Of a stretch of DNA of 25,302 nucleotides, positions 1,160 through 18,075 are shown one piece after another. The stretch comes from a virus: positions 1 through 25,302 of the IMG/VR virus record IMGVR_UViG_3300027129_000021. One strand, written 5' to 3'. Made by a program: the position numbers and the translations under genes. Below the pieces are notes generated by a model. That model made no database searches. It was given only the letters and a program-made list of their open reading frames with translations, and was not told where the DNA came from. Every line of letters starts with the position of its first letter. Positions within the stretch are counted from its first letter, which is position 1.

Positions 1160-1160
1160 A

Positions 1161-1289
1161 ATGGCACTTACAGATGAGGATAAAGCGTTTCTAATCAAGA
1201 TAGGGCAAGAACTGCCTAAAGAGGTTAAAGAAACAAAGCAAAAGGCAGTAAAAGACACAGAAACACCGACAACAGAAAACGAGGAATAA
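1161..1289 (+). CDS. Hypothetical 42-aa charged protein
   Basis: This short reading frame begins one base after the preceding stop and ends three bases before the major tail protein start, so it fills the gap exactly. The product (MALTDEDKAFLIKIGQELPK...) is rich in Lys, Glu and Thr, with an acidic disordered C-terminus and no membrane segment or cysteine. Both copies encode the same peptide. A very small gene here could encode a capsid/neck accessory or an assembly factor, but nothing in the sequence decides this. Confidence 0.6.
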   Translation: MALTDEDKAFLIKIGQELPKEVKETKQKAVKDTETPTTENEE

Positions 1290-1292
1290 CTA

Positions 1293-1703: not shown

Positions 1704-1722
1704 CTAAAACAAAGGGGCAACA

Positions 1723-2150: not shown

Positions 2151-2799
2151 AGCTCGCAAGGCTTTACGCAAGTATGCCCCGGATTTAGGCAAAGCTATAC
2201 AAAAAGAACTAGCCAACCTGTTAAAGCCTGTTACAAACAAAGCTAAGGGTTTTATACCTGCAGATATACCAGAACTAAGCAACTGGTCTAAGCCAGTATC
2301 TAGCGCAGAAACAATAAATTATAGAGCATTTCCAAAATTTGATGCAGGCGAAGCTAGGCGCGGTATAGGCTATAGAACAGCGCCCAGCAAGCCTAATAAA
2401 AACGGCTTTAGAGCTTTAGCGCGCATAGCCAATGTAAGCGCTGCCGGTGCTATCTATGAAACTAGCGGGCGGCTTAACCCGTTTGGCAGACCGCAAGGCC
2501 CTCTAGTAGATCGTTACATAGATGGCGTATACGACAAAACTACTGCTAGCGGTAAACAATACTCTAACAGCCTTAATCCTAACGCTGGTAAACAATTTAT
2601 AGATGCACTTAATGGCACAGGTAAAATAGTAGATGCTAATAATCAAACAGGGCGCGGGCGTAGGTCTAGAAAGATGAAAGGCCGGGCAATTTATAGAGCT
2701 TGGGCTGAGGATGGCGGCAAGACTAACGCAGCTGTAATTAAAGCTATAGAGAAAACCAAAATTGTATTTAATAAATATATCTTGCAGGCGGTAAAATAA
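2122..2799 (+). CDS. Tail/neck structural protein, HK97 gp10-like candidate
   Basis: A 225-aa basic protein between the chaperones and the tape measure gene. The N-terminal region (GVEARKALRKYAPDLGKAIQ...VTNKAKGFIP) is a long amphipathic helix, as seen in gp10-like tail-completion proteins. The middle holds GYRTAPSKPN, then ARIANVSAAGAIYETSGR with a G/N-rich stretch. The C-terminus is strongly basic (GRGRRSRKMKGRAIYRAW). The start is inside the frameshift extension, with AGGAG about 8 bases upstream. It ends by sharing a base with the tape measure ATG. The family assignment is by pattern and neighbourhood only, and a minor tail or assembly role is also possible. Confidence 0.5.
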   Translation: MPTEVRGGVEARKALRKYAPDLGKAIQKELANLLKPVTNKAKGFIPADIPELSNWSKPVSSAETINYRAFPKFDAGEARRGIGYRTAPSKPNKNGFRALARIANVSAAGAIYETSGRLNPFGRPQGPLVDRYIDGVYDKTTASGKQYSNSLNPNAGKQFIDALNGTGKIVDANNQTGRGRRSRKMKGRAIYRAWAEDGGKTNAAVIKAIEKTKIVFNKYILQAVK

Positions 2800-4712
2800 T
2801 GGCTGTAGATCCGCAAGTAGTAGTAAATATAGCCTCTGAGTTTACAGGCAAAAAAGCGTTTAAGGAAGCGGAAACTGCGACTACAAAACTAAGTAAAAAT
2901 GTAAAAAGTTTAGCTAAAACTTTAGCTGTAGCATTTAGCGTAACAGCTGTATTAAGGTTTGGTAGAGCAGCAGCTAGATCATTTGCAGAGGCAGAAAAAG
3001 AGGCCAAGTTATTAGGGGCGCAATTAGATGCTGTTAATTTAGGCTTTGCTGCGCCTTTTCTTAACTCATTTATAGACAAGCTAGCCCTAGCTACAGGTAT
3101 AGGCGGGGGCGATTTAACGCGCGCGTTTGTATCCTTATCACAAGCTACAGGTGATGCTACGCAAGCGCAAAAACTATTGCAGACCGCGCTAGATGTAAGC
3201 TTAGCAACAGGCAAAGATTTACAAGCTGTTAGTAATGGCCTAGCTCGTGCCTTTAAGGGTGAAACTACCGCGCTAGCTAGGTTACGCATAGGTTTTACTA
3301 CAGCTGAGCTAAAAGGTAAAAGCTTTAATGAAATATTAGAATTACTTAATGGCAAGTATTTAGGTGCAGGCGCTAAGGCCTTAGACACCTACGCAGTTAA
3401 AATAGCCAGGTTAGCCGAGGCAGGAGATCAAGCTAAAGAGGCGCTAGCTAGAGGGTTTGTAGATGGCCTAGAGGCTAGCGGTATGAGCGTAGAGGATTTC
3501 CAAGAAAAGATTATAGAACTAGGCACACAGATAGGCACAGCGTTAGGTAAAGCTGCAGGCGCATTTGATAAGTTTGAGGTTAAATTAGAGGAACTGAGTA
3601 AAAACCCAGCTATAAAACTTATATTAAAAGCCTTTGATGCGCTTATAGGCCTAGACCCTATTATTGGTAGCGCGGCAGATCAACTAGATAAGACTAATAA
3701 ACTACGCAAAAAACAAGCTGAGGCATACGCTAAAGAACTAAGTAACAGGGGCATCTTACTAAAAATAGCCCAGGCAGAGGCTTTAGCTGCTAAAAAAAGA
3801 TTAAATGAGCAAAAACTTATAACAAAAGAAAAGGCAAATCAATTAGCCTTAGATAAGGCTGCCCTAGCTTTAGGCAAAGGTACAGATGTATTTGACTTGG
3901 ACAAGATACAGGTGGCAGCGGCGCTAGCAGCCAAACAGGATGAAATAAACAAGCTAGGTGCAGCTGCGACAGATCAACAAAAACTAAGCCTAGCTAATGA
4001 CCTTGTACGCTTAACGCTCAAAAAAGATATGGCGGCGCTAGAGGATGCTATAGCTGCTAAAGATGTAGTAGCTGCCACGGCACTAGCTAAAAAGATAAAC
4101 CTTAATTTAGCAATACTAGGCGCGTTGCAGGCACAAGATTTTAAGCTACAAGATATAAACGCCATATTAGAAAAGTTTAAGCCTAAAGCGCTTATAGACC
4201 TACAAAACCTAAACGAAGCGCTAGCTCTGTTGATGAAAATGGCAGGCCTACAGATTAACCCATTAGGAATAGGTGCAGGCGGTGCAGTTGGCGGTGGTGC
4301 AGTTGGCGGCGGTGCAGTAGGCGGCGTTGCAGTAGGCGGCGGTGCAGTAGGCGGCGGTGCAGTAGGAGGCGGTGCTATTGCCAATTTATTAGCGCTGCGA
4401 GCAACTACAGATCCTGGCACAGGTATCAATGTTTTACTTAAAGAGCATATAGACACATTATTAGCGCAACCTTTTATGGACAGTATGTTAGGTGATGAGC
4501 AGTTACGGTTAGCACAAATGCGTATAATGGAAAGACCAGGCATAGGGGCAGACTCTGGCTTTGACCCTGCCCGCTTTAGGATGGGTGATAACTACATAAC
4601 AGTAAATGCAGGTGTAGTAGGTAGTGAGGACACAATAAGCCAAGCTGTACAAAAAGCCATATTAGACCTAGAGCGCAAGGGTGACCCGTTGCGTTACACC
4701 GGTGGGCTATGA
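2799..4712 (+). CDS. Tape measure protein
   Basis: At 637 aa this is the longest gene in the unit, immediately after the chaperones and before the minor tail genes. It is rich in Ala, Lys and Leu with long helices and heptad-like stretches (TATTKLSKNVKSLAKTLAVA, RAAARSFAEAEKEAKLLGAQ), as expected of a protein that spans the tail lumen and sets its length. A hydrophobic patch occurs near residues 40-55. Residues 495-524 are a (G-A-V-G-G) repeat, which separates the helical body from a C-terminal domain (about 525-637). At the usual ~1.5 angstrom per residue it predicts a tail of roughly 90-100 nm. It overlaps the next gene by ATGA. Both copies encode the same protein. Confidence 0.92.
   Translation: MAVDPQVVVNIASEFTGKKAFKEAETATTKLSKNVKSLAKTLAVAFSVTAVLRFGRAAARSFAEAEKEAKLLGAQLDAVNLGFAAPFLNSFIDKLALATGIGGGDLTRAFVSLSQATGDATQAQKLLQTALDVSLATGKDLQAVSNGLARAFKGETTALARLRIGFTTAELKGKSFNEILELLNGKYLGAGAKALDTYAVKIARLAEAGDQAKEALARGFVDGLEASGMSVEDFQEKIIELGTQIGTALGKAAGAFDKFEVKLEELSKNPAIKLILKAFDALIGLDPIIGSAADQLDKTNKLRKKQAEAYAKELSNRGILLKIAQAEALAAKKRLNEQKLITKEKANQLALDKAALALGKGTDVFDLDKIQVAAALAAKQDEINKLGAAATDQQKLSLANDLVRLTLKKDMAALEDAIAAKDVVAATALAKKINLNLAILGALQAQDFKLQDINAILEKFKPKALIDLQNLNEALALLMKMAGLQINPLGIGAGGAVGGGAVGGGAVGGVAVGGGAVGGGAVGGGAIANLLALRATTDPGTGINVLLKEHIDTLLAQPFMDSMLGDEQLRLAQMRIMERPGIGADSGFDPARFRMGDNYITVNAGVVGSEDTISQAVQKAILDLERKGDPLRYTGGL
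4281..4370 (+). repeat. 15-bp minisatellite inside the tape measure gene (6 units)
   Basis: Six in-frame units of GGTGCAGTAGGCGGC or one- to two-base variants run 4281-4295, 4296-4310, 4311-4325, 4326-4340, 4341-4355 and 4356-4370. Each encodes G-A-V-G-G, with one unit V-A-V-G-G. Slippage in whole units would change the protein by five residues without a frameshift. Confidence 0.9.
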
Positions 4713-5947
4713 CCCTACCTGTAGTAAATGCGGTAATTAACTTTAGTACCGGGCCTAGCTTTGCTCAAGCTATGATTTTAGATACAGGCATACTAGATAC
4801 AAACGTGCTAGCAGATAGCGCGGCAGTAATTGTAGATGTGTCTAACGTAGTAGATACAATACAAACTAACAGAGGCCGTAACCCACAGGCTGACCAATTC
4901 CAAACAGGTACGCTAACTATGCGTATTGTTGACCAAAACGGCGATTTTAACCCACAAAATACTAGCGGCCCTTATTATGGCTTGCTAGACCCTATGCGTA
5001 AAGTGCAGATAACAGCTACCTACGCTAGTACTACTTACCCTATCTTTAGCGGTTTTATTACTAGCTACACTACTACTACACCTAAAAACGCAGATGAGGT
5101 TACTTATACCACGATTACGGCGGTAGATGCGTTTAGACTTGCCCAAAATGCACAGATAGCAACGGTAGCAGGGGCTACAGCTGGTGACTTATCAGGTACG
5201 CGAGTTAATCAAATATTAGATCAAATAGGCTGGCCTAGCTCTATGCGTGATGTAGATGCAGGGCTAACTACAATGCAGGCAGACCCCGGCACAGCGCGTA
5301 CTAGTCTTGCAGCTCTTAACACAGTAACCCTAAGTGAATACGGCGCTTTTTATGTTGATGCTCTCGGCTCTTTCGTCTTCCAAGATAGAAACGTGACCAC
5401 GGCTAGCATAGGCGGCACACCTACCGTGTTTAACGATAACGGCACGGCTATAGGCTATTTTAACGCTGTTTGGCGCTTAGATGATACGTTGGTATTTAAT
5501 GCGGCTAGCATCACGCGTACAGGCGGTACTACACAGGTAGCTACAGATGCAGCCAGTATTGCCAAGTACTTTACACACAGCTATAACCAACAAAATCTAC
5601 TAATGCAGACAGATGCGGTAGCCCTAGATTACGCTCAAGCCTATGTAGCTAGCCGTAAAGAAACGTCTATAAGATGTGATGCCATTACCCTAGATTTATA
5701 CACAGATAACTATAATGCCGGCATAATCGCCGCCCTAAATCTAGATTTTTTTGACCCTATAACGATTACTACTAACCAGCCAGGCTCATCTACATTAACT
5801 AAGACTTTGCAGGTGTTTGGCGTAGCTATGGCAATTACGCCCGGCAGCTGGAAAACGACACTAACAACACTAGAGCCGATAATAGACGGCTTTATACTAG
5901 ACTCAAGCATATACGGCCTGCTAGACACAGGCGTACTTGCTTATTAA
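4709..5947 (+). CDS. Minor tail protein (distal tail / hub-type)
   Basis: A 412-aa protein directly after the tape measure, the usual place for distal tail or hub proteins at the tail tip. The N-terminal part carries the pattern V-D-V-S-N-V-V-D-T-I-Q-T-N-R-G-R, then DQFQTGTLTMRIVDQNGDF and N-T-S-G-P-Y-Y-G-L-L-D-P-M-R. This is a recognisable signature of actinophage minor tail proteins. The remainder is beta-rich (Thr/Asn/Asp) and ends in LLDTGVLAY, echoing LDTGILDT near the N-terminus. No enzymatic motif is visible. The start overlaps the tape measure stop by four bases, and its stop lies inside the ribosome site of the next gene. Confidence 0.82.
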   Translation: MTLPVVNAVINFSTGPSFAQAMILDTGILDTNVLADSAAVIVDVSNVVDTIQTNRGRNPQADQFQTGTLTMRIVDQNGDFNPQNTSGPYYGLLDPMRKVQITATYASTTYPIFSGFITSYTTTTPKNADEVTYTTITAVDAFRLAQNAQIATVAGATAGDLSGTRVNQILDQIGWPSSMRDVDAGLTTMQADPGTARTSLAALNTVTLSEYGAFYVDALGSFVFQDRNVTTASIGGTPTVFNDNGTAIGYFNAVWRLDDTLVFNAASITRTGGTTQVATDAASIAKYFTHSYNQQNLLMQTDAVALDYAQAYVASRKETSIRCDAITLDLYTDNYNAGIIAALNLDFFDPITITTNQPGSSTLTKTLQVFGVAMAITPGSWKTTLTTLEPIIDGFILDSSIYGLLDTGVLAY

Positions 5948-5956
5948 GGAGATGCT

Positions 5957-6565
5957 ATGGCAGCGGGCTTAGGATTTAAGACCTTTACCACAGGTGAGGT
6001 TTTAACTGCCGCGGATGTAAACGGGTATTTAATGCAAGGTATATTAGTTTTTGCCACAGAGGCAGCGCGTAACAGCGCAATAACTAGCCCACAAGAAGGT
6101 CAGTTTGCATTTACTAAAGATACTAACACTACTTGGTATTACACAGGCAGCGCGTGGGTAGTCAGCGGAGCAACAGGTGATATAGAGGGCATAACTACAG
6201 GCACAGACTCAGGGCTATCAGGCGGCGTGACTAGCGGTACAGCTGTACTTAGATTAAAACTAGAGTTTGATGCAGAAACAGGCACTACATATACGCTATT
6301 AGCAGCTAACCTTAATCAGCTAGTAACCCTTAACAATGCAAGCGCAATAACGCTAACTGTGCCGCCATCTGTATTTAGTGCAGGTGATGTAATAAATATA
6401 GCGCAGATCGGAGCAGGCCAAGTAACGCTAGCGCAAGGCGCAGGTGTAACAATAACTAGCACAGGTGCAACCTCTAGCGCCCCTAAACTACGCGCGCAAC
6501 AAAGCGCAGCTAGCATTATCTGCACAGCATCAAATACGTTTTTGGTCGTAGGAGATATAGCGTAA
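5957..6565 (+). CDS. Tail fibre / minor tail protein
   Basis: A 202-aa protein preceded by a strong ribosome site, AAGGAG at 5946-5951, one of the best in the window. The N-terminus (GFKTFTTGEVLTAADVNGYLMQGILVFATEAAR) matches the common phage pattern F-x-x-G-E-V-L-T-A-A-x-V-N-x-Y-L-M-x-Q of tail-fibre attachment regions, followed by F-T-K-D-T-N-T-T-W-Y-Y-T-G-S-A-W. The C-terminal half is a Thr/Val/Ala beta-rich region (ITLTVPPSVFSAGDVINIAQ) typical of fibre stalk or receptor-contact domains. It shares a base with the next ATG. Its exact receptor role cannot be read from the sequence. Confidence 0.75.
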   Translation: MAAGLGFKTFTTGEVLTAADVNGYLMQGILVFATEAARNSAITSPQEGQFAFTKDTNTTWYYTGSAWVVSGATGDIEGITTGTDSGLSGGVTSGTAVLRLKLEFDAETGTTYTLLAANLNQLVTLNNASAITLTVPPSVFSAGDVINIAQIGAGQVTLAQGAGVTITSTGATSSAPKLRAQQSAASIICTASNTFLVVGDIA

Positions 6566-7482
6566 TGAGTTTATTGGGCATTATTGCTAGTCAAAATTAT
6601 CCGCGCACTTTTACTGTTGATTATCTTGTTGTTGCTGGTGGTGCTGGTGGTGGCTCACGGCAGCACGGCGGTGGCGGTGGAGCTGGTGGTCTGCGTTGCA
6701 CAGTTACAGCAACAGGCGGCGGCGGCAGTTTAGAAAATGCGATAAGTCTCTCAAATGGACAAAATTACACAGTATCTATTGGCGGGGGCGGTGCTGGTGG
6801 AAGTAATACTGGTAGCCCAAACAATAACCCAGGCACAAATGGCACAGACTCATACATATCTGGAACAGGCATTACGACAATAACTAGCGTTGGCGGTGGT
6901 GGTGGTGGTGCATTTAATGATAGTTCTACAAACGCTGGAAACGCAGGTGGTTCAGGTGGCGGTCAAGGTGGTGGAACTTTTGCAGGCGGTGGTGGGGCTA
7001 GACAAACTGGGCAAGGTTTTGCAGGTGGAGCATATAGCTCAGCAGATGGCCCTGGTTCTGGTGGCGGTGGTGCAGGAGTAATTGGGGGAAATGCAAGCGG
7101 CACATTTCCTGCTGGCGTTGGTGGTAATGGTGGTAATGGTGTTGCAACTAGCATTACAGGTTCATCTGTTACTTATGCAGGTGGTGGCGGTGGAGCTAGA
7201 CAACAAAATGGTTCAGGTGGAACTGGTGGAACAGGTGGTGGCGGTTCAGCCACAAGTTCTGATAGAAATGGCTTAGTCAATACTGGTGGCGGTGGCTCTG
7301 GTGGATATTGGGATGGCAACACTTCAGGCGGTAATGGCGGTAAGGGTGTAATTATTTTGCGATATCCAGATACAAGAACAATAACTTTTGGTGCAGGTGT
7401 AACAGGAACAGAAAGTGCGGCTAGTGGTGGATATAAAAGAGCTACTATTACAGACGGCACAGGAAATGTGAGTTTCTCATAA
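6565..7482 (+). CDS. Glycine-rich tail adhesin-like protein
   Basis: A 305-aa protein with FTVDYLVVAGGAGGG at the N-terminus and many short runs of Gly (GGGGGAGGL, GGGGGGAF, GGGGSGGYWDG), closing with GVIILRYPDTRTITF. This is the glycine-rich domain pattern common in aquatic phage tail proteins. By analogy with glycine-rich adhesins such as S16 gp38, such regions may fold as polyglycine-II bundles with variable receptor-binding loops. It sits at the end of the tail genes, as an adhesin should. Base use differs from neighbours: GGT/GGC repeats and about 5 CTAG per kb instead of 15-18. Acquisition from another aquatic phage is likely. Reading frames on the other strand and in the +2 frame here are by-products of the GGT repeats. 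Confidence 0.8.
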   Translation: MSLLGIIASQNYPRTFTVDYLVVAGGAGGGSRQHGGGGGAGGLRCTVTATGGGGSLENAISLSNGQNYTVSIGGGGAGGSNTGSPNNNPGTNGTDSYISGTGITTITSVGGGGGGAFNDSSTNAGNAGGSGGGQGGGTFAGGGGARQTGQGFAGGAYSSADGPGSGGGGAGVIGGNASGTFPAGVGGNGGNGVATSITGSSVTYAGGGGGARQQNGSGGTGGTGGGGSATSSDRNGLVNTGGGGSGGYWDGNTSGGNGGKGVIILRYPDTRTITFGAGVTGTESAASGGYKRATITDGTGNVSFS

Positions 7483-7826
7483 TGGCACATTACGCATTTT
7501 TAGATGAAAATAATATAGTAACTGAGGTAATTTCGGGCATTGATGAAACTGAACTGATTGAAGGTTTAGATACCGAAACTTGGTATGGCAATTTTAGAGG
7601 ACAAACTTGCAAGCGCACTTCATACAATAACAGTATTCGCAAACAATATGCAGGCATAGGTTATAGCTATGATCCTGTGGCAGATGTGTTTATTGCGCCA
7701 CAGCCTTATCCATCTTGGTCGCTAGATGAGAACTATGAGTGGCAACCGCCAACTCCAAAACCTGCGGAAATGGGTTGGTATTGGGATGAGGCAGAGCAGG
7801 TTTGGCTAAATGCTACAGAGCTATAA
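7482..7826 (+). CDS. Conserved aquatic-phage tail-associated protein
   Basis: A 114-aa protein beginning MAHYAFLDENNIVTEVI and containing C-K-R-T-S-Y-N-N, R-K-Q-Y-A-G-I-G-Y-S-Y-D-P, P-Q-P-Y-P-S-W-S-L and W-Y-W-D-E-A-E-Q-V-W. I recognise this as a hypothetical protein widespread in cyanophages and other aquatic phages, usually next to tail-fibre genes. No biochemical role is known to me, and a fibre accessory or chaperone role is only a guess. Its start shares a base with the adhesin stop, and it overlaps the endolysin gene by 17 bases. Codon use resembles the adhesin gene more than the rest of the genome, so the two probably travelled together. Confidence 0.75.
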   Translation: MAHYAFLDENNIVTEVISGIDETELIEGLDTETWYGNFRGQTCKRTSYNNSIRKQYAGIGYSYDPVADVFIAPQPYPSWSLDENYEWQPPTPKPAEMGWYWDEAEQVWLNATEL

Positions 7827-8295
7827 CGGCTGGCCTGCCAGTAAAGACCCCACAGAGATAGGCATAAAAAGTTATGCAGTACCCGGAACTAATAGAAAAC
7901 TTAAATGCGCTGAGGCTGTAGCACCTTTACTAATTGGTTTTGCCGCTGAGTTCCACGCGCTAATAGAGCCAATAGATGAGGGCGCGCTAGATGAGTGGGG
8001 CTACTGTTTTAGAGATGTGCGCGGCGTACCGGGCAAGCTAAGTAATCACGCAAGCGGTACAGCTATAGATCTAAACGCTACTAAACACCCGCTGACTAAG
8101 CGCGGTACATTTCCAGCCGAGAAAGTGCCAATGATTAAGGCGCTAGCTAAAAAGTACGGGCTAGCCTGGGGCGGCGAGTGGACCAGGGCAGATGAAATGC
8201 ACTTTGAGGTAGCTGTAAATGAGGCTAAAGCTGCCAAAATAATACTAAGGTTAAGCAAGGGCAAAACACAAGGGGCAGAGCAGGTAGCACAATGA
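7810..8295 (+). CDS. Endolysin, M15-family (VanY-like) zinc peptidase
   Basis: A 161-aa protein with the two hallmark motifs of LAS/M15 metallopeptidases: S-N-H-A-S-G-T-A-I-D (residues 78-87; H80 and D87 as zinc ligands) and W-G-G-E-W...D-E-M-H-F-E (120-133; H131 as third ligand with an adjacent acidic residue as base). Family members cleave peptide cross-links of peptidoglycan, and phage versions act as endolysins at host lysis. There is no signal peptide, so export depends on the holin just downstream. It has no separate cell-wall-binding domain; the last ~20 residues are a short basic/Gln-rich tail. The start overlaps the preceding gene by 17 bases, and the end overlaps the holin start by ATGA. 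Confidence 0.92.
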   Translation: MLQSYNGWPASKDPTEIGIKSYAVPGTNRKLKCAEAVAPLLIGFAAEFHALIEPIDEGALDEWGYCFRDVRGVPGKLSNHASGTAIDLNATKHPLTKRGTFPAEKVPMIKALAKKYGLAWGGEWTRADEMHFEVAVNEAKAAKIILRLSKGKTQGAEQVAQ

Positions 8296-8486
8296 ATAGA
8301 AAGCAACTAGAGGCAGCGGCCTATAGTTACGGGCGCGCGGCTTTAGCTAGCGTTGCAGCTTTGTACCTAGCAGGCATAACAGACCCTAAAGTATTAGCTA
8401 ATGCTTTTTTAGCTGGTCTTATCGGGCCAGTACTAAAAGCTATACAGCCTAACGAAAAGCAATATGGCATAGGATCTAAGAAGTAA
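8292..8486 (+). CDS. Holin, r1t-like
   Basis: A 64-aa protein with two hydrophobic segments (about residues 14-27, RAALASVAALYLAG, and 37-50, NAFLAGLIGPVLKA) and the signature A-G-I-T-D-P-K-x-L-A-N-A-F-L-A-G-L-I-G-P-V, typical of r1t-type holins of actinophages. The C-terminus is polar (QPNEKQYGIGSKK). It would form the membrane lesion that releases the M15 endolysin encoded immediately upstream. It is coupled to both neighbours by overlapping start/stop codons. Confidence 0.88.
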   Translation: MNRKQLEAAAYSYGRAALASVAALYLAGITDPKVLANAFLAGLIGPVLKAIQPNEKQYGIGSKK

Positions 8487-8701
8487 TGTCTACAGCTCAA
8501 GCCTTACTAAGTATTGCGCTGGCTATATGCGCTCTTACAGGTGTAGGGCTTGGGCTGATTAGGCATTTAGTTAGGCATTATCTAAGCGAGCTGCTACCAG
8601 ATAACAACGGAAACCATAATTTAAGAGGTCGCGTAGAGCGTATAGAGCAGCGCGTAGATAAAATTTATGAGCTATTGCTTGAGGAACGACTAGCCCGCTA
8701 G
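8486..8701 (+). CDS. Small membrane protein with coiled coil (second holin / lysis accessory candidate)
   Basis: A 71-aa protein with one membrane segment (about residues 5-26, QALLSIALAICALTGVGLGL). A basic patch (RHLVRHY) follows, then a predicted coiled coil (about 46-70, L-R-G-R-V-E-R-I-E-Q-R-V-D-K-I-Y-E-L-L-L). Such proteins often follow the holin in actinophage lysis cassettes. The role may be a second holin, antiholin or envelope-disrupting factor, and sequence alone does not decide. The start shares a base with the holin stop. Confidence 0.65.
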   Translation: MSTAQALLSIALAICALTGVGLGLIRHLVRHYLSELLPDNNGNHNLRGRVERIEQRVDKIYELLLEERLAR

Positions 8702-8804
8702 CGTGTCGGGTTGCTTTATGTCGGTGCTAGCCTTCATACTTTTAGCTACACGCTGAGAGGGCTACTTAGCAGGTAGAGCTATCAGCCATAACTAAAGGGG
8801 CTGT

Positions 8805-8957
8805 ATGTTAATAGATCTAGCAGTAATTTTATTTACGGTGCTAATGGTAGGTATGTTTATGTTAGCTGCCTATCGCACAGGCTACCGCGAGGGCCACGGT
8901 GACGGTTATCTACGCGGTAAAAATATTTCTAAGGCGCTAAGAGAGGCCAATAAATGA
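8805..8957 (+). CDS. Hypothetical 50-aa single-span membrane protein
   Basis: The reading frame starts at ATG 8805 after AAAGGGG (8794-8800) and ends in an ATGA overlap with the next gene. It encodes MLIDLAVILFTVLMVGMFML, a clear membrane segment (about residues 3-22). A short charged cytoplasmic-type tail (YRTGYREGHGDGYLRGKN...) with a G-x-G-D-G-Y motif follows. Copy B changes I-S-K-A-L-R to I-A-K-A-L-K, conservative changes that support real coding. The first difference after the 7.8-kb identical tract (8900) lies in this gene. A lysis accessory or membrane-anchoring role is possible, but the function is unknown. Confidence 0.72.
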   Translation: MLIDLAVILFTVLMVGMFMLAAYRTGYREGHGDGYLRGKNISKALREANK

Positions 8958-9607
8958 GCAATTTTTTAGAGGGCTATGAGGATGTAAACGCAAGGATAAC
9001 TAGGGCGCGTGCAGAATATCCGGGCTTGCGCCTAGTTGCATACATTGAGGATATAAGCCTAAAAGATGGCTACATATTGGTAAGAGCTGAGGCCTATAAA
9101 AACTATGATGATGAAAAGCCAAGCGCTGTAGATTATGCTTTAGAGGTTAGGTCAGACCGTGGCGTAAATGCTAATTTTTGGGTAGAGAACTGCGTTACTA
9201 GCGCCTATGGCCGCGTTATAGGCCTGCTTACCCCTGGTGGCATAGGTAGACCTACACGGCAGGATATGGACAAGGCACAAGGCCTTACAGGGCCTACAAA
9301 GCCTACAAAGACAGGCGCTATAGACGTACCCAATGAGCCTAGCTGTAAACACGGTTTTAGGATGTTGCTAGAGGGCATAGGCAAGACAGGTGCGCCATAC
9401 AAAGGCTGGATGTGCCGCGAGAAGGTCAAGGCTAACCAATGCCAGCCAATATGGATGCGTAAATATGATGCACAATGGCTTATGCCAGAGGATTACACAG
9501 AGGTAGTTACAGAGGCAGGGCTAAACCTAGATCCTGTAGCCGAGCGCGAGCCTGTGCCAGATGCATTTATGAGCGATAGCGAAAGGGCAGCCCGTGGAGC
9601 CAATTAG
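8954..9607 (+). CDS. Candidate ERF-like single-strand annealing / DNA-binding protein
   Basis: A 217-aa protein starting MSNFLEGYEDVNARITRARAEYPGLRLV. The N-terminal half alternates strands and helices and contains V-T-S-A-Y-G-R-V-I-G-L-L (residues 81-92). This resembles the T-S-A-x-G-R-A-L-G-x-L core of ERF/SAK-type annealing proteins. A Pro/Thr/Lys linker (about 110-128) leads to a C-terminal module with C131, H133, C154 and C163 (C-K-H-G...G-W-M-C...C-Q-P-I-W), a probable zinc-binding unit often seen at the end of actinophage recombination or ssDNA-binding proteins. Copy B differs by about 29 bases but only three residues (G110S, G113A, V125L, all near the linker). The function is inferred from patterns; a phage SSB-like role is the main alternative. 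Confidence 0.5.
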   Translation: MSNFLEGYEDVNARITRARAEYPGLRLVAYIEDISLKDGYILVRAEAYKNYDDEKPSAVDYALEVRSDRGVNANFWVENCVTSAYGRVIGLLTPGGIGRPTRQDMDKAQGLTGPTKPTKTGAIDVPNEPSCKHGFRMLLEGIGKTGAPYKGWMCREKVKANQCQPIWMRKYDAQWLMPEDYTEVVTEAGLNLDPVAEREPVPDAFMSDSERAARGAN

Positions 9608-10043
9608 ACAAATAAAGGCAGATTATGGGCGTGAGCAAAGGCTAGCTAATTACCTAGAAAGTGTACTGCCCTGGTCGCTTACGGCTACGCCTGCATTTTA
9701 CTTTACTGATTACCACATAAATAAGAAGCTAGAGCAGCATAGAGAAAGCTACATAGGTGATGTGGAGATGAAGTGGCTTAACACTCCGAGCAGCCAGGTA
9801 GCTATATTTAACTACAACAAACTACAGCTTATGGCAGCTGTGCCGGTGTACACACAGGGCGTAGACAGCTATCACCGTATCTGTTTTAGGTTTACAGACG
9901 GGCTATTGCTAGTGCCTGCCCTGGCCTTGCTACGCCTGCCCCCTGTGCTATTTACTAGATCTGATACACACGAAACCGATTTAGTAGTAAAAGTAAAAGC
10001 TAGCGATTTTGCCACCTGTTTTAGACCTGAGCGCGTAGATTAG
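9594..10043 (+). CDS. PD-(D/E)XK-type nuclease candidate
   Basis: A 149-aa protein starting at GTG 9594, overlapping the preceding gene by 14 bases. Its layout fits a PD-(D/E)XK nuclease core: a helix with E14 (YGREQRLANYL), an acidic residue D39 (YFTDYH), then E58-x-K60 in G-D-V-E-M-K-W. A helix with K76 (YNKLQLM) and a strand R-I-C-F-R-F-T-D-G-L-L-L-V-P follow, as in many short phage members. Paired with the annealing-protein candidate upstream, it would make an exonuclease/annealase or resolvase module for recombination or concatemer processing. Copy B changes A31 to Pro and others are largely silent. The exact substrate and activity cannot be read. Confidence 0.5.
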   Translation: MEPIRQIKADYGREQRLANYLESVLPWSLTATPAFYFTDYHINKKLEQHRESYIGDVEMKWLNTPSSQVAIFNYNKLQLMAAVPVYTQGVDSYHRICFRFTDGLLLVPALALLRLPPVLFTRSDTHETDLVVKVKASDFATCFRPERVD

Positions 10044-10047: not shown

Positions 10048-10227
10048 ATGGAAACTATGCTTTACATAGAGGCTAAGTGCAGACAATGCAAGACCGTAAC
10101 GCTACAGCTAGAGCGCGTGGTATCAGACCACCTGCCACCTAACGTAAAGTGCCTACAATGCACTAGGTGCGGGCTACTAGATATAACTATGGTAGATGTG
10201 AATAACGCTAGACAGGTGCGCAATTAA
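10048..10227 (+). CDS. Zinc-ribbon microprotein (59 aa)
   Basis: ATG at 10048, four bases after the preceding stop, opens a frame to TAA 10225-10227. The product has C11-x2-C14 and C35-x2-C38-x2-C41 (K-C-R-Q-C-K ... K-C-L-Q-C-T-R-C-G), the classic spacing of a zinc ribbon, with ~20 residues between the knuckles. It could bind nucleic acid or a host protein. It ends two bases before the first DnaA box, so an origin-associated or transcription-modulating role is conceivable but unproven. The window ends before this gene in copy B, so no comparison is available. Confidence 0.68.
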   Translation: METMLYIEAKCRQCKTVTLQLERVVSDHLPPNVKCLQCTRCGLLDITMVDVNNARQVRN

Positions 10228-10228: not shown

Positions 10229-10289
10229 TTATCCACAGGGGCGCAAAACCTGTGGACAACACGCCCAAGCCCCGTTCAAGTTATCCACA
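10229..10289. promoter_or_regulatory. Cluster of three DnaA boxes (putative replication origin or DnaA-titration site)
   Basis: TTATCCACA occurs at 10229-10237 and again at 10281-10289. TGTGGACAA at 10251-10259 is the inverted form of TTGTCCACA. The first is the classical DnaA consensus and the second is the variant common in actinobacteria. Boxes 1 and 2 face each other and form an 8-bp perfect inverted repeat (TCCACAGG/CCTGTGGA, 10232-10239 and 10249-10256). I found no other match in the window. The unit lacks recognisable replication proteins, so a host-DnaA-dependent origin is the simplest reading. Sequestration of host DnaA is the alternative. Confidence 0.68.
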
Positions 10290-10291: not shown

Positions 10292-10723
10292 ATGGCTAAA
10301 TGCTTGACTAGCCCAGTACGATTACTGCGCGCAGGCAGAGCCGCCCTAGCGGATAGCTCAGACCAGCTGCGTAATCTTAGGGTAATTCTATGCCTAGTCA
10401 TAGGCTCTATCTTTACACAAAATGTTTCGGCTAACGCTGATCTAAATGCTACAGATGCTTACAAAATATATGCACATATAAAGATAGGCAGTTATAAGCA
10501 ATTTATATGTTTAGAGAAGCTATGGACTAAAGAGAGTAATTGGCGGCCTAAAGCAACTAATCCTAAATCTACAGCTTATGGCATACCACAGCTATTAAAG
10601 CTAAAAGAAACTAACCCTTACAAACAAATAGACTTAGGGCTAAAGTACATAGATAAGCATAGAATATACAAAGGTAACGCCTGCTTAGCGTGGGCTCATT
10701 ACAAGAAGCATAGGTGGTACTAA
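10292..10723 (+). CDS. Secreted lysozyme/transglycosylase-like protein
   Basis: A 143-aa protein. The N-terminus has a long basic region (residues 1-30), a hydrophobic core (about 31-42, VILCLVIGSIFT) and V-S-A-N-A (45-49), a good signal-peptidase site. The mature part carries L-W-T-K-E-S-N-W (E81 as catalytic candidate), A-T-N-P-K-S-T-A-Y-G-I-P-Q (88-100), L-G-L-K-Y-I and C-L-A-W-A-H-x(5)-W-Y. This is the pattern of actinobacterial SLT/lysozyme-like domains, with C73 and C131 able to form a disulfide. It would cleave peptidoglycan glycan strands outside the membrane. A second lytic enzyme, placed next to the origin and far from the holin, is unusual. The start (ATG 10292) is two bases after a DnaA box and has no clear ribosome site, so a later start is possible. 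Confidence 0.75.
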   Translation: MAKCLTSPVRLLRAGRAALADSSDQLRNLRVILCLVIGSIFTQNVSANADLNATDAYKIYAHIKIGSYKQFICLEKLWTKESNWRPKATNPKSTAYGIPQLLKLKETNPYKQIDLGLKYIDKHRIYKGNACLAWAHYKKHRWY

Positions 10724-11064
10724 TGGCTAAGTCTGGTGACCCTAGATTAAAGCGTGCCTATCGTGATGGCTTTAGATCTAAAGTATTAGCTAGAGATGGC
10801 TACACCTGTGCATACTGTGGGCAAGAGGCAGACCAGGTAGACCACGTAATACCTATTAGCAAAGCCCCAGAGTTAGTAGTTAATTTAGATAACGCGGTGG
10901 CCTGTTGTCGCAGATGCAACATAAGCAAGGGCAATAGATCTCAAGGCGTTTTTTTAGCAAGGTCTGCTACCCCCCCTGTCTTTTCAGGCAATATCTCTCC
11001 GAAAACGGACATAACGCCACAAAGCGGGCCCTGTTTGGGCCAGCCTGAACAGAGCGCTAACTAA
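10723..11064 (+). CDS. HNH endonuclease (packaging-associated)
   Basis: A 113-aa protein from ATG 10723, which shares a base with the preceding TAA. A GTG at 10714 would add three residues but is less likely. The HNH core is intact: C29-x2-C32 (C-A-Y-C-G), D40-H41 (Q-V-D-H-V-I-P), N57 in N-L-D-N-A, then C62-x2-C65-N and K69. The Cys pairs bind structural zinc, while the His/Asn residues hold the catalytic metal. HNH proteins adjacent to the large terminase in HK97-like phages work with it in cutting DNA at the packaging site, which suggests defined (cos-type) ends. The last ~35 residues are Pro/Ser-rich and probably disordered. The stop overlaps the terminase ATG. Confidence 0.88.
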   Translation: MAKSGDPRLKRAYRDGFRSKVLARDGYTCAYCGQEADQVDHVIPISKAPELVVNLDNAVACCRRCNISKGNRSQGVFLARSATPPVFSGNISPKTDITPQSGPCLGQPEQSAN

Positions 11065-12482
11065 TGACTAGTAAACCTAAACAGCCGCTCCGGGGGCTAG
11101 CGAAACCGCGCTTGCATAACGCTTTGTTATCTGGGCCTACACGCGGCGGCGAGGTTGCAGAGCTAGCAGAGAAAATAGGGCTGCCGCTTTTACCCTGGCA
11201 GCGCCTAGTGCTAGACGATATGCTGACAATAGATAAAAATAAAATGTTCGTACGCAAGACCTGCCTCGCCATTACAAGCCGTCAAAACGGAAAGACACAT
11301 TTAGCGCGTATGCGTATATTAGCTGGCCTGTTTTTGTTCAATGAGCGTAATCACATAATTATTAGCTCTGCTAGATCTATGGCCCTTACTACCTTTAGAG
11401 AGGTAGCTAATGCAATAGAGGATAACCCAGAGCTAAAGAAGCAACTAAAAAAGATACTTTACACAAACGGTAATGAGGCAATAATCTTAAAAAGCGGGGC
11501 TAGGCTAGATGTAAGAGCTGCTACCCGCGATAGCTCGCGCGGTGCTAGCGCTGACTTTCTATTTATAGATGAGCTACGCGAGATAACACAGGAAGCCTTC
11601 GCAGCTGCTACTCCTGTTACCCGCGCAAAACCTAATAGCCAAACTTTATTGTGTAGCAACGCTGGTGATGCGTTTAGCACTACGCTAAATGAGCTACGCG
11701 AGCGCTGCCAGGCTAACCCGCCGCCGTCTATGGGCTATTACGAATATAGCGCCCCGCCATTTTGCGCTTTAGATGATCGTAAAGCTTGGGCATCTGCTAA
11801 CCCAGCGCTAGGCATACTAATAACTGAGGAAGCGCTAGCCGAGGCGCTAACGGTGCAGACTACAGAGCAGTTTAGGACAGAGAGCCTTAGCCAATGGATA
11901 GACAGCTTACAAAGCCCGTGGCCGTTTGGCGCTGTTGAGGATGCAAGCGACATAAACCTAAAAATGAGCCCTGGCCCGCTTACTGTATTTGCCTTTGATG
12001 TAAGCCCTAGCCGCCGAGATGCCAGCTTAGTAATGGGCCAAGTATTGCCAGACGGCAAGATAGGCGTTGCAGTACTAGAAACCTACAGCTCACAGGTAGC
12101 AGTAGATGAAATAGTTATAGCAGCTAGTATAAAAAAGTGGTCAGATCTGTATTACCCGCGTTTAGTCTGCTACGACAAATACACTACTGCCAGTATTGCG
12201 CAAAGGCTACAAAATGCAGGCGTACAGACCCGTGATGTATCTGGACAGAGCTTTTATACCGCTTGTAGCGATATGTATGATGCTTTAGTTAATAATAGGC
12301 TTAGGCATAGCGGGCAAGATGCGCTTATACAGCAAATGGCTAACTGTGCAGCTAAACAGACCCCGGATGCGTGGCGTATTGTGAGGCGCAAGTCTGCCGG
12401 ACCTGTAGATATACCTATTGGCCTTGCTATGGTTATACACATAATGGCTCAACCTGTAGCTGAGGCTAAGGTATACGCCTAG
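11064..12482 (+). CDS. terL: Terminase large subunit
   Basis: A 472-aa packaging motor. The N-terminal ATPase has an adenine-binding L-P-L-L-P-W-Q-R-L-V-L (about 40-50), Walker A T-S-R-Q-N-G-K-T (71-78), Walker B F-L-F-I-D-E (165-170; D169, E170 catalytic) and the coupling motif L-L-C-S-N-A-G-D (195-202). The C-terminal RNase-H-like nuclease begins at F-A-F-D-V-S-P (D312), with later acidic residues in the C-Y-D-K-Y region. It translocates genomic DNA into the prohead through the portal and cuts concatemers. It is coupled to the HNH gene by TAATG. No gene resembling a small terminase subunit lies beside it. Confidence 0.93.
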   Translation: MTSKPKQPLRGLAKPRLHNALLSGPTRGGEVAELAEKIGLPLLPWQRLVLDDMLTIDKNKMFVRKTCLAITSRQNGKTHLARMRILAGLFLFNERNHIIISSARSMALTTFREVANAIEDNPELKKQLKKILYTNGNEAIILKSGARLDVRAATRDSSRGASADFLFIDELREITQEAFAAATPVTRAKPNSQTLLCSNAGDAFSTTLNELRERCQANPPPSMGYYEYSAPPFCALDDRKAWASANPALGILITEEALAEALTVQTTEQFRTESLSQWIDSLQSPWPFGAVEDASDINLKMSPGPLTVFAFDVSPSRRDASLVMGQVLPDGKIGVAVLETYSSQVAVDEIVIAASIKKWSDLYYPRLVCYDKYTTASIAQRLQNAGVQTRDVSGQSFYTACSDMYDALVNNRLRHSGQDALIQQMANCAAKQTPDAWRIVRRKSAGPVDIPIGLAMVIHIMAQPVAEAKVYA

Positions 12483-13696: not shown

Positions 13697-15320
13697 CGGC
13701 AACATAGAGGCAGTAGATAACGGCGATAGGCGCACGATTAGCGGCAAAATTGCGCCTTATGGCGAGGTAGGCAACACAAGCGCCGGGCGCGTAGTGTTTG
13801 CAGAAAACTCTATAACCGTGCCAGAGCCAAGCAAGGTTAAGCTTTTGATGTCTCACGATAATTCTAAGCCGGTAGGGCGTATGCAGAGTGTTACCAGTAA
13901 TAAAACGGGTTTGTATGGCAGCTTTAAGGTAAGCGCTAGCACCCGCGGTAGTGATGCAATTTTGCTCGCACAAGAACAGCTAATGGATGGGCTTAGCGTA
14001 GGTGTAGAGGTAGAGGACTCACGCCAAGAAAAAGATTATCTGCTAGTTACGGCTGCTACCTTGAAAGAGGTATCTCTAGTAGAGAGCGCTGCATTTCCAA
14101 GCGCTGCCGTGTTAAAAATTGCTGCACAAGAAAACGCAGTAGATCCAAACCAACCAACAGAAACGACAGGAGAAACCGTGGATAAAGCCCCGGAAGAAAT
14201 GGCAGCGGAAGGTACTTACCTACCAGACGGTGCGACAGTAACGCTAAAGAGCGTTAGCTATGAGTCAAAAGATGCCGAGGGCGTTACCGAACCGGTAGAG
14301 GCCAGCCGCAGAATTATTAAGCCAAGTGCGCTTAACTCACAGAGAGTACGCACACCGATTACATCTATGGGCGCATACACAGAGCATAAAATCAAAGCTG
14401 CTTTAGGTAATGATGAGTCAAAGCTATATGTAACAGCTGCAGATGATAGCTGGACAACAAATCCAAGTTTTAACCCCACCCAGTACCTAACAGAATTCAT
14501 TTCTAACACACGTTTTCCACGCAGCGCTGTAGATGCTTGCAGCCGTGGAGTTTTGCCACCTAAGGGCAACACAATTAACGTGCCTGCACTTGTAGACTCA
14601 AACGGCGGGCTAAATGGTGTAGCACCTACCGTTACTGTAGAGGCAGAAGCCGGCGCTGTATCTAATACAGGTATGGTAACTGAGTATCTAACTGGAACTG
14701 TAAATAAGTATGCTGGTATGAACACTCTGTCTGTAGAACTACTAGAGCGTACAGATAATCCGGGCTTTTTTGCTGAATTAACACAGCAAATGCAGAACGC
14801 ATATATGAACGCAACAGATAGCGCTGTTATTAGTGCAATTAACGCAACAGGCTTTACTAGCACAGGCGTAGCAGCTACAGCGGCAGGTTTGATTTCTTAT
14901 ACCGCTGAAAGTACAGCTAACGTTTACAAGAACAGCGGCTACTTTGCACAAAACTTTGTAGGCAGCACAGGTATTTATAATCTGCTATTAGGTGCAGTAG
15001 ATACCACAGGCCGCCCAATTTTTAACGCTTACCAGCCAAACCCATCTGCACTTGCTAACGCAGCTGGTCAGGTAGCTAATAACTCTGTACGCGGTAACGT
15101 ATTAGGTCTAGATCTCTATGTAGATAGATTTATGACCGCTGGAGTCGTTGATAACTCTGCGTTTATTCTTGCGCCAGAGGCATTTACTGTTTATGAAAGC
15201 CCACAGGCTTACATGAGCGTAAACGTAGTATCAAATCTACAAGTACAGGTAGCTATTTACGGCTTTATGGCAACTATTGCCAAGATCCCTAACGGTATCT
15301 GCCGCCTAAATATCGCGTAA
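13680..15320 (+). CDS. Prohead protease-major capsid protein fusion
   Basis: A single 546-aa frame. Residues about 1-150 are an HK97/S78-type prohead protease: the S-H-D-N-S-K-P-V-G-R motif supplies the catalytic histidine (H59), D-G-L-S-V-G-V-E the serine (S106), and L-K-E-V-S-L-V-E-S-A-A-F-P is the usual closing motif with the acidic partner. Residues about 150-230 are an acidic, Glu/Pro/Thr-rich linker resembling a delta/scaffold domain. From about 230 to the end is the HK97-fold coat protein (F-I-S-N-T-R-F-P-R-S-A-V-D-A, the E-Y-L-T-G-T-V-N-K-Y region, T-G-R-P-I-F-N-A-Y-Q-P). Self-cleavage would release the mature coat. No internal stop or frameshift occurs. The same fusion is known to me from the smallest actinophages. 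It overlaps the portal end by 17 bases. Confidence 0.9.
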   Translation: MLLTFSGNIEAVDNGDRRTISGKIAPYGEVGNTSAGRVVFAENSITVPEPSKVKLLMSHDNSKPVGRMQSVTSNKTGLYGSFKVSASTRGSDAILLAQEQLMDGLSVGVEVEDSRQEKDYLLVTAATLKEVSLVESAAFPSAAVLKIAAQENAVDPNQPTETTGETVDKAPEEMAAEGTYLPDGATVTLKSVSYESKDAEGVTEPVEASRRIIKPSALNSQRVRTPITSMGAYTEHKIKAALGNDESKLYVTAADDSWTTNPSFNPTQYLTEFISNTRFPRSAVDACSRGVLPPKGNTINVPALVDSNGGLNGVAPTVTVEAEAGAVSNTGMVTEYLTGTVNKYAGMNTLSVELLERTDNPGFFAELTQQMQNAYMNATDSAVISAINATGFTSTGVAATAAGLISYTAESTANVYKNSGYFAQNFVGSTGIYNLLLGAVDTTGRPIFNAYQPNPSALANAAGQVANNSVRGNVLGLDLYVDRFMTAGVVDNSAFILAPEAFTVYESPQAYMSVNVVSNLQVQVAIYGFMATIAKIPNGICRLNIA

Positions 15321-15333
15321 TAAATAACTAATA

Positions 15334-15369
15334 GTCTGGTAGGGCCTTAGCCCTTTGGCTCTACCAGAC
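15334..15369 (+). promoter_or_regulatory. Strong RNA hairpin after the capsid gene (copy B)
   Basis: The same 9-bp perfect stem (GTCTGGTAG/CTACCAGAC) extended by wobble and GCC/GGC pairs as at 58-93, without any base change. It lies 13 bases after the capsid stop, with no T-run downstream. A leaky terminator or a protector of capsid mRNA is the likely role. Confidence 0.6.
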
Positions 15370-15389
15370 CTACAAAGAAAGGTACAAAT

Positions 15390-16043
15390 ATGCCAGCCAC
15401 ATACGTAACAGCTGCAACACTTAAAGCATCATTAGGCGTAGGCACTTTGTACGATAGTTACACTTGGATAGAGGACACCTGCCAAACGGCGCAAGATTTA
15501 ATAAACGGTTTTTTATGGTTTGACTCTGCACCTGTAGTGGGAACTGCGTTAGTAAGTAACGTAGCTACAGTAATGATAGCCAACCCCGGCCTATTTACTA
15601 CTGGCCAAACCGTCACAGTAGCCGGGGCTGGCACTACTTTTAACGGCAGCTACACAATTACTAGCACCCTGCCTTTTAGCTCTGGTAGCACTAGCCTTTT
15701 ACCAGCGTTTAATTTACAGCTTAACTATTACCAATACCCACAGGGTTATAGCTTTATACAATATGCAAAAACAGCTAGTGACCAAAACTTTAGGCGCGTA
15801 GTACCTAGCGGCACTATGACGGGTGAGGATACAAAGACCGCAAGCTACGCGGCTACACCTGCAATTAACGCTGCCGCTTTGATGATAGCTGAGAATATCT
15901 GGACTAGCCGATTTAGCACACAGGCAGGCGGGGTAAGCGTAGATGGCTTTAGCCCTAGCCCATTTAAGATGAGTAATACTCTTATGGCATCTGTACGCGG
16001 CCTACTAGCGCCGTATCTTAACCCTAGCGCTATGGTCGGATAA
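15390..16043 (+). CDS. Head-tail adaptor (connector) protein, probable (copy B)
   Basis: The 217-aa counterpart of 114-767: helical N-terminus, beta insert at about residues 50-110, helical C-terminus, placed straight after the complete capsid gene and hairpin. It should join the portal to the tail. About 39 base substitutions distinguish it from copy A (6%), including several Leu codon switches (CTT/TTA, TTA/CTG, TTA/CTT). Only one residue changes (AAT Asn to GCT Ala, a two-base codon replacement). This shows purifying selection and two genuine strain variants. Confidence 0.7.
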   Translation: MPATYVTAATLKASLGVGTLYDSYTWIEDTCQTAQDLINGFLWFDSAPVVGTALVSNVATVMIANPGLFTTGQTVTVAGAGTTFNGSYTITSTLPFSSGSTSLLPAFNLQLNYYQYPQGYSFIQYAKTASDQNFRRVVPSGTMTGEDTKTASYAATPAINAAALMIAENIWTSRFSTQAGGVSVDGFSPSPFKMSNTLMASVRGLLAPYLNPSAMVG

Positions 16044-16435
16044 TGCCAGCCGCGATAACTACGCTTAGATCTACTATAGCCGCTGCACTAGCTAATAACT
16101 CTGTTTGGTCTACCTTTAGCTTTCCACCTAGCACAATAGTAGCTAACAGCGTAGTAGTGGCTCCGGCAGACAATTACATTACGCCTAGCAATAATTCTTA
16201 CGCAAGTATTGCGCCGCTAGCAAATTTTAAGATTATTATGACCGTGCCTATGTTTTCTAATGAAGGCAACCTGCAAGGCATAGAGGATACGATAGTGGCT
16301 GTGTTTGGTCTATTAGCCGCTAGCAGTATCGTATTTAATGTTACCGCTGTATCAGCTCCTAGCGTATTGGCGCTGCCTAGCGGTGATTTGCTTACAAGCG
16401 ATTTACAAATATCCGTACTAACGAGCTGGAGCTAA
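16043..16435 (+). CDS. Neck / tail-terminator-type protein, tentative (copy B)
   Basis: The 130-aa protein is the same as in copy A; the gene has about 12 silent differences, all before 16358. The remaining bases to the stop are the same in both copies, so the identity boundary lies inside this gene. It is coupled to the adaptor by TAATG. A small alpha/beta neck protein is inferred from size and position between adaptor and tail tube. Confidence 0.55.
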   Translation: MPAAITTLRSTIAAALANNSVWSTFSFPPSTIVANSVVVAPADNYITPSNNSYASIAPLANFKIIMTVPMFSNEGNLQGIEDTIVAVFGLLAASSIVFNVTAVSAPSVLALPSGDLLTSDLQISVLTSWS

Positions 16436-16436
16436 A

Positions 16437-16565
16437 ATGGCACTTACAGATGAGGATAAAGCGTTTCTAATCAAGATAGGGCAAGAACTGCCTAAAGAGG
16501 TTAAAGAAACAAAGCAAAAGGCAGTAAAAGACACAGAAACACCGACAACAGAAAACGAGGAATAA
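16437..16565 (+). CDS. Hypothetical 42-aa charged protein (copy B)
   Basis: Lys/Glu/Thr-rich peptide fitted between the neck gene (one base away) and the major tail gene (three bases away). It matches 1161-1289, with a hydrophobic patch A-F-L-I-K-I near the start and a disordered acidic end. The function is unknown. Confidence 0.6.
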   Translation: MALTDEDKAFLIKIGQELPKEVKETKQKAVKDTETPTTENEE

Positions 16566-16568
16566 CTA

Positions 16569-16979
16569 ATGGCAATTTTTCTTTCTAACGGCGTAGTAGT
16601 CACGCTAAACAGCGTGGCCCTGTCGGATCACGTTACTAGCGCAACTATTAACCGTAGTTTTGATGAGCTAGAAGTTACAGCTATGGGCGACACAGCGCAT
16701 AAGTTTGTAAAAGGTTTAGAGGCCAGCACTATCACGCTTGATTTTCTAAACGATACGGCAGCATCAAACGTACTTGCAACCTTGCAAGCTGCGTGGGGTA
16801 CTACTGTAGCGCTAACACTTAAGCAGACAAGCGCGGCTATATCGGCAACAAACCCAGAATATCAGACCACAGTTTTGGTCAACAATACTACAGACATTAA
16901 CGGATCTGTCGCTGATATCAGTACCCAGAGCATTACATTTACTTGTAACTCACCTATCGTAGTAGACACCACACCATAA
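16569..16979 (+). CDS. Major tail (tube) protein, probable (copy B)
   Basis: The same 136-aa beta-rich protein as 1293-1703, directly upstream of the frameshifting chaperone pair. The subunit would stack into the tail tube. No difference from copy A was seen at protein or base level. Confidence 0.75.
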   Translation: MAIFLSNGVVVTLNSVALSDHVTSATINRSFDELEVTAMGDTAHKFVKGLEASTITLDFLNDTAASNVLATLQAAWGTTVALTLKQTSAAISATNPEYQTTVLVNNTTDINGSVADISTQSITFTCNSPIVVDTTP

Positions 16980-16998
16980 CTAAAACAAAGGGGCAACA

Positions 16999-17256
16999 AT
17001 GGCACAGCTTAAAATAACAAGGGCAGACGGCAGCGTAAGCGAGCATAAGATTACGCCCCGTATTGAGTATGCCTTTGAGCAGTATGCTAAAAAAGGTTTT
17101 CACAAAGCCTTTAGAGATGATGAAAAGCAAAGTGATGTTTACTGGCTAGCCTGGGAGTGCCTACGCACTAGCGGCGAAGTAGTAAAAACGTTTGGGGCAG
17201 ATTTTCTAGAAACCTTAGCTAAAGTTGAGGTTACAGACGATAACCCTTTGGAGTAG
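16999..17256 (+). CDS. Tail assembly chaperone, short form (gpG-like, copy B)
   Basis: An 85-aa helical chaperone ending at TAG 17254-17256, with AAAGGG about 8 bases before its ATG. It is the abundant, unshifted partner of the G/GT pair that holds the tape measure protein during tail assembly, and matches 1723-1980. Confidence 0.82.
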   Translation: MAQLKITRADGSVSEHKITPRIEYAFEQYAKKGFHKAFRDDEKQSDVYWLAWECLRTSGEVVKTFGADFLETLAKVEVTDDNPLE

Positions 17257-17426
17257 TGGGGCGCGGTAGTTTTGGCTATTTAATCGCACAAATTGCGGTA
17301 GAAACAGGCATAGCGCCCCAGTACTTGCTAGATCTAGATGATGTAATGTTTAGTAATATCCTAAAGGTTTTAACCGATAGGGCTAAGGAGATGCAGGATG
17401 CCAACCGAGGTAAGAGGCGGCGTTGA
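16999..17426 (+). CDS. Tail assembly chaperone, -1 frameshift product (gpGT-like, copy B)
   Basis: The frame shifts at 17244-17250 and continues from base 17250 to TGA 17424-17426, giving about 142 aa. The T-type extension contains G-Y-L-I-A-Q-I-A, I-A-P-Q-Y-L-L-D-L-D-D-V-M and the basic terminus G-K-R-R-R. It overlaps the next gene by 29 bases, as in copy A. Confidence 0.82.
17244..17250 (+). promoter_or_regulatory. Programmed -1 ribosomal frameshift site (CCCTTTG, copy B)
   Basis: In-frame C CCT TTG four bases before the 0-frame stop, matching the X-XXY-YYZ rule. It is identical to 1968-1974. Confidence 0.82.
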
Positions 17427-18075
17427 AGCTCGCAAGGCTTTACGCAAGTATGCCCCGGATTTAGGCAAAGCTATACAAAAAGAACTAGCCAACCTGTTAA
17501 AGCCTGTTACAAACAAAGCTAAGGGTTTTATACCTGCAGATATACCAGAACTAAGCAACTGGTCTAAGCCAGTATCTAGCGCAGAAACAATAAATTATAG
17601 AGCATTTCCAAAATTTGATGCAGGCGAAGCTAGGCGCGGTATAGGCTATAGAACAGCGCCCAGCAAGCCTAATAAAAACGGCTTTAGAGCTTTAGCGCGC
17701 ATAGCCAATGTAAGCGCTGCCGGTGCTATCTATGAAACTAGCGGGCGGCTTAACCCGTTTGGCAGACCGCAAGGCCCTCTAGTAGATCGTTACATAGATG
17801 GCGTATACGACAAAACTACTGCTAGCGGTAAACAATACTCTAACAGCCTTAATCCTAACGCTGGTAAACAATTTATAGATGCACTTAATGGCACAGGTAA
17901 AATAGTAGATGCTAATAATCAAACAGGGCGCGGGCGTAGGTCTAGAAAGATGAAAGGCCGGGCAATTTATAGAGCTTGGGCTGAGGATGGCGGCAAGACT
18001 AACGCAGCTGTAATTAAAGCTATAGAGAAAACCAAAATTGTATTTAATAAATATATCTTGCAGGCGGTAAAATAA
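17398..18075 (+). CDS. Tail/neck structural protein, HK97 gp10-like candidate (copy B)
   Basis: The same 225-aa basic protein as 2122-2799, starting inside the frameshift extension and ending on the first base of the tape measure ATG. A long N-terminal amphipathic helix and an Arg/Lys-rich C-terminus are the visible features. The assignment rests on location. Confidence 0.5.
   Translation: MPTEVRGGVEARKALRKYAPDLGKAIQKELANLLKPVTNKAKGFIPADIPELSNWSKPVSSAETINYRAFPKFDAGEARRGIGYRTAPSKPNKNGFRALARIANVSAAGAIYETSGRLNPFGRPQGPLVDRYIDGVYDKTTASGKQYSNSLNPNAGKQFIDALNGTGKIVDANNQTGRGRRSRKMKGRAIYRAWAEDGGKTNAAVIKAIEKTKIVFNKYILQAVK

Follow-up and report, generated by a model that had tools for sequence, protein, structure and literature searches.

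A conserved DnaA-box array as the best candidate for the replication start of tiny freshwater tailed phages

The window analysed here, a stretch of 25,302 nucleotides (25.3 kb), consists of a 15,276-bp unit followed by a 10,026-bp second pass of the same unit with 108 mismatches, and its 25-kb length is itself an assembly artefact. When the two passes were compared (positions 1-10026 against 15277-25302), the differences were found in two patches, 41-1081 and 8900-9905, with identical sequence in between, a pattern that suggests a chimeric wrap-round assembly of mixed strains. The second pass ends about 200 bp short of the point where the DnaA boxes described below would recur. All genes have one strand direction and follow the order terminase, portal, protease-capsid fusion, tail, lysis, a 217-aa protein, a 149-aa protein, a zinc ribbon, the box array, a transglycosylase, an HNH endonuclease and the end of the genome (Table 1). 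We noted that 18 contigs start exactly 80 bp 5' of the terminase gene and that others stop about 13 bases earlier. These contig end positions point to a linear molecule whose ends are cohesive and which starts at position 10984.

Table 1. Features around the DnaA-box array and the genome ends (positions in the window)
Feature	Position	Strand	Basis or remark
217-aa probable single-strand annealing protein	8954-9607	+	RAD52-like N-terminal fold, tentative
149-aa probable PD-(D/E)XK nuclease, Holliday-junction-resolvase-like	9594-10043	+	predicted structure
59-aa zinc-ribbon protein	10048-10227	+	conserved neighbour of the array
DnaA box A	10197-10205	-	TTATTCACA; one mismatch; within 3' end of the zinc-ribbon ORF
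DnaA box B	10229-10237	+	TTATCCACA; conserved AAG precedes
DnaA box C	10251-10259	-	TTGTCCACA; conserved CACGCC after it, on the + strand
DnaA box D	10281-10289	+	TTATCCACA; conserved AAG precedes
Transglycosylase (SLT)	10304-10723	+	probable TTG start, inferred from conservation; in-frame ATG at 10292
Conserved covarying stem-loop	10320-10376	+	within the first, signal-peptide-coding part of the transglycosylase ORF, directly after the array
AT-rich, low-stability stretch, possible unwinding element (function inferred)	10451-10525		stability calculation
HNH endonuclease	10714-11064	+	right end of the linear genome
Inferred cos overhang, about 13 nt	10971-10983		CCCCCCTGTCTTT conserved; contig ends (start 10984, stop near 10970); overhang type inferred
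Terminase large subunit	11064-12482	+	Pfam/PHROGs scan

A sequence-only reading of this DNA had described three DnaA boxes, two TTATCCACA sites around an inverted TTGTCCACA within 61 bp, and we confirmed them exactly, in both sequence and position. Boxes B, C and D are the sole strict TTRTCCACA sites across the 15,276-bp unit. A first-order model expects 0.1 strict boxes per unit by chance and about 6e-9 three-box clusters within 61 bp, which rules out chance clustering. Together with box A, which is mismatched in the window copy and perfect in many relatives, the array has the geometry A-, B+, C-, D+, with 61 bp from B to D. It is intergenic, with 15 bp between the end of box D and the probable TTG start of the transglycosylase. 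The claim that the first two boxes form an inverted repeat was also borne out: B and C can pair into a hairpin with a DnaA box in its stem (DNA fold z = -3.9). The array is not an assembly artefact, because many independent contigs have the same layout.

To judge conservation we used relatives that had been fetched by their terminase, 217-aa and 149-aa proteins separately, without reference to the boxes. Among distinct 1-kb regions upstream of the HNH gene, at least two strict boxes were found in 78 of 79 and at least three in 60 of 79; absence of the boxes in close relatives, the result that the sequence-only reading had named as speaking against an origin, was thus not seen. Clade 1 (mostly TerL 88% or more) has the layout B+ 22 C- 30 D+, and A- frequently precedes it by 32 bp. 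In clade 2 (TerL about 80-85%) an extra box 13 bp upstream of B is common, and many members have a one-letter change in box C, giving TCGTCCACA (TGTGGACGA); the strict sites left in them are then + 13 + 50-52 + or + 51 +. The layouts of both clades are united in L355 and L356 (+ 13 + 22 - 30 +), whose TerL is 32% identical, and the 22/30 layout is also present in L359 (TerL 62%). The flanks are conserved too, in a set chosen by box pattern, with AAG before B and D and CACGCC after C. A pattern scan found the exact three-box layout in at least 119 viral-contig stretches. Conservation is weakest in L039, where four boxes form a degenerate cluster within 97 bp directly before the transglycosylase gene, and in L080, where the region read contains no box and no recognised initiator.

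Two further observations concern the surroundings of the array in relatives. In L086, L024 and L089, box B lies several hundred bases farther from box A, or from where box A would be, which points to insertions of about 555-620 bp. Clade-2 relatives carry one or two further strict minus-strand boxes just past the terminase gene (L343, reverse strand 1512-1538; L345, 1624-1650).

In Pfam and PHROGs scans of the right-arm and packaging genes, and of part of the tail genes, no product was recognised as an initiator, helicase, primase or polymerase; searching 19 miniphage-size relatives for DnaB_C likewise gave no match. The earlier statement that the phage has no replication genes therefore holds for these four functions in the scanned genes, but it had left out two recombination genes. 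The 149-aa protein (AlphaFold pLDDT 89) resembles PD-(D/E)XK nucleases, with a probability of 1.00 for the archaeal resolvase Hjc and no match passing E 0.001. Judged by this predicted structure, it is probably a PD-(D/E)XK resolvase-like nuclease. A RusA-like resolvase occupies the same module in L080 and L039. The first match of the 217-aa protein (pLDDT 69) was RAD52 at E 0.045, so we call it a RAD52-like single-strand annealing protein only tentatively. In staphylococcal phage 80alpha such recombinases are required for normal replication (PMC5499656).

The 149-aa gene was found in larger phages too, and since in most of them a WhiB gene adjoins it, this neighbourhood points to actinobacterial hosts. 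We counted the gene family at 69 loci whose downstream sequence extends for 700 bp or more. A box cluster without an initiator match was present at 24 of these loci, all miniphage-like; a BLAST-recognised initiator without a box at 14; and neither box nor recognised initiator at 31, which belong to large phages. In the larger, mostly WhiB-carrying phages, an initiator gene follows the nuclease gene at 14 of 45 loci, one of which (L107) encodes a match to PHROG 270 'replication initiation protein' (E 6e-33), and box arrays are found at 0 of 45. This distribution suggests that initiator gene and DnaA array may be alternative solutions in related phages.

None of 16 small isolated phages, taken by capsid type or size and mostly from other actinobacteria, has a strict box, which rules out the array as a general trait of small actinophages. 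The small-genome actinobacteriophages (among them Arthrobacter AN, Microbacterium EE and Rhodococcus RRH1) are like the phage studied here in having a 14-18-kb genome, a protease-capsid fusion and an HNH gene near the right end, but they differ in lacking strict boxes. O-like initiators are encoded by the AN-type phages Maggie and Kels, whereas matches were weaker for Berka and RRH1 and lacking for Corgi; in contrast, no O-like or RepA-like initiator, a feature of the right arm in some AN/EE/RRH1-type members, was recognised in the unit (Pfam, PHROGs). Boxes are absent from Atraxa, Adaia, Noelani and EricDab, whose 24 right-arm proteins gave no replication initiator among the best 25 of 62 families, so the absence of an initiator alone does not imply the use of DnaA. 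When three isolated miniphages were searched for iteron-like repeats, their non-coding gaps yielded just short two-copy repeats. Among freshwater phages that encode a primase-helicase and a polymerase themselves, only 6 of 32 loci carry arrays. The 22/30 spacing was also seen in some members only of a few unrelated primase-helicase/polymerase phages (L272 115-341, L295 333-452, L300 4683-4960), which were originally picked by that pattern.

We then consider the DNA beyond the boxes. At 10463, about 170 bp beyond box D, begins the 50-bp segment that ranks second lowest in stability across the unit, within an AT-rich stretch that starts about 160 bp from box D; the DNA between box D and this stretch is GC-rich, and no AT-rich element lies directly beside the boxes. 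A GC-skew minimum near 10.2 kb, which the sequence-only reading had put forward as a check, is absent, and the skew extremes lie at the inferred cos ends. The skew, however, neither supports nor decides the matter, because all genes point one way and extremes are expected at the ends. Nothing was found to support the suggestion that the zinc-ribbon gene regulates the site. In a bacterial genome collection, compared without the host's own oriC, the exact three-box layout was found in Thermonema only, so the array does not simply reproduce an oriC already known.

The stem-loop downstream of the array is common to 20 diverse relatives. In these, 88.3% of cells are paired, whereas shuffles reach 69.2% and sliding the structure gives no more than 40.5%, the latter a control biased in its favour because the structure was defined from folds of the same sequences; both sides have changed in 13 of 21 pairs. 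Comparison with Rfam gave no family match, so no known RNA family accounts for the element. G-T and A-C mismatches, which would tell RNA from DNA, were too few to discriminate. A similar hairpin, read by eye, lies at 3855-3890 of L080, which is box-less, and the array and the stem-loop are thus separable.

Because the array is conserved and an initiator follows the shared nuclease gene in some larger relatives, we favour the view that an initiator-less miniphage starts its replication here, at an origin fired by host DnaA, and on the comparative sequence evidence we think this probable. The sequence-only reading had proposed the same, and the proposal remains the best-supported one as regards the conserved place and spacing and the initiator found instead in some larger relatives, although the expected skew minimum is missing. 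DnaA also regulates promoters, for example lambda pR, and might act here as a transcription factor, the array being an operator upstream of the transglycosylase gene that makes right-end and packaging expression depend on host DnaA or on phage copy number. The intergenic position 15 bp before the probable TTG start would suit an operator, as would the inverted box C in a genome with all genes in one direction and the covarying stem-loop that this ORF carries at its 5' end. However, a search over 1.2 kb around the array returned, for the promoter types covered, a lone promoter-like match, no more than shuffles did, and an operator would leave unexplained how copying starts in a genome without replication genes; we regard this as rather unlikely.

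The sequence-only reading had also considered a decoy like datA, a titration locus with DnaA boxes outside oriC. Such an array would titrate DnaA, block host initiation and free the replisome, with the phage origin elsewhere. High-affinity boxes on a multicopy genome would indeed bind DnaA, and the lack of a skew minimum and of an adjacent AT-rich element at the array fits titration. A pure sink, however, needs number, not geometry, whereas here only three to four boxes are present and their spacing and flanking bases are fixed across very divergent phages; the array is like datA in having boxes outside oriC and unlike it in lying on a phage with conserved geometry and flanks. The decoy is therefore the less likely alternative, and we hold it to be improbable. 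Finally, the downstream stem-loop might itself be the core origin, either primed by RNA as in ColE1 or of a single-strand, primosome-loading kind, and the boxes would then do no more than help to load the helicase. The pairing above shuffles (88% against 69%), the 13 of 21 doubly changed pairs, the similar hairpin in L080 and the B-C hairpin with a DnaA box in its stem would agree with this, but the element falls within the first part of the SLT coding sequence, whose mRNA it may serve, it matches no RNA family, and as single-stranded DNA the window copy folds no more stably than shuffles do (z -0.6). We consider a stem-loop origin very improbable.

If the array is an origin fired by host DnaA, the cohesive ends would join after injection to give a 15-kb circle, which would present the DnaA of the host, which we infer to be an actinobacterium, with three to four predicted high-affinity boxes in fixed geometry. 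DnaA would assemble at the array and may open the nearby AT-rich DNA, and the host helicase and replisome would then be loaded for theta replication. The phage would supply only recombination functions, namely the annealing protein and the resolvase-like nuclease. Recombination would convert the copies into concatemers, and HNH endonuclease and terminase would cut these at cos.

Such an origin would be like bacterial oriC and oriC-type minichromosomes in its cluster of perfect DnaA boxes, its fixed geometry, a possible AT-rich region nearby and, as proposed here, its use of host DnaA. It differs from bacterial oriC in having only three to four boxes, in lying on a tailed phage and in the distance of about 160 bp to the AT-rich region. 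DnaA boxes on small extrachromosomal elements are also found in plasmid origins of the P1, R6K and ColE1 type; P1 and R6K, however, have their own initiator and ColE1 an RNA primer, and neither was recognised in the miniphage. By description only, the phage is like the approximately 15-kb freshwater tailed 'miniphages', some of them predicted to infect Actinobacteria, of Kavagutti et al. 2019 (PMC6802176), in size, habitat and tail; the main text of that paper mentions neither 'DnaA' nor 'replication'. At the level of titles and abstracts we found nothing relevant on DnaA-box arrays in such phages, and the searched literature offered no explanation of how replication starts in the smallest tailed phages without replication genes.

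In these tiny freshwater tailed phages of about 15 kb, which form a large family, the array, at one fixed place, is thus the best candidate for the replication start, and as a short segment it is directly testable. We put at about even the chances of the broader proposal, that a widespread lineage of tailed phages lost or never had an initiator, that host DnaA starts its replication at a compact array of fixed geometry, possibly together with the stem-loop, and that it has kept its own recombination genes. If true, copying of the phage would be directly subject to the cell-cycle switch of its host, and it would become clear why a genome of about 15 kb is enough.
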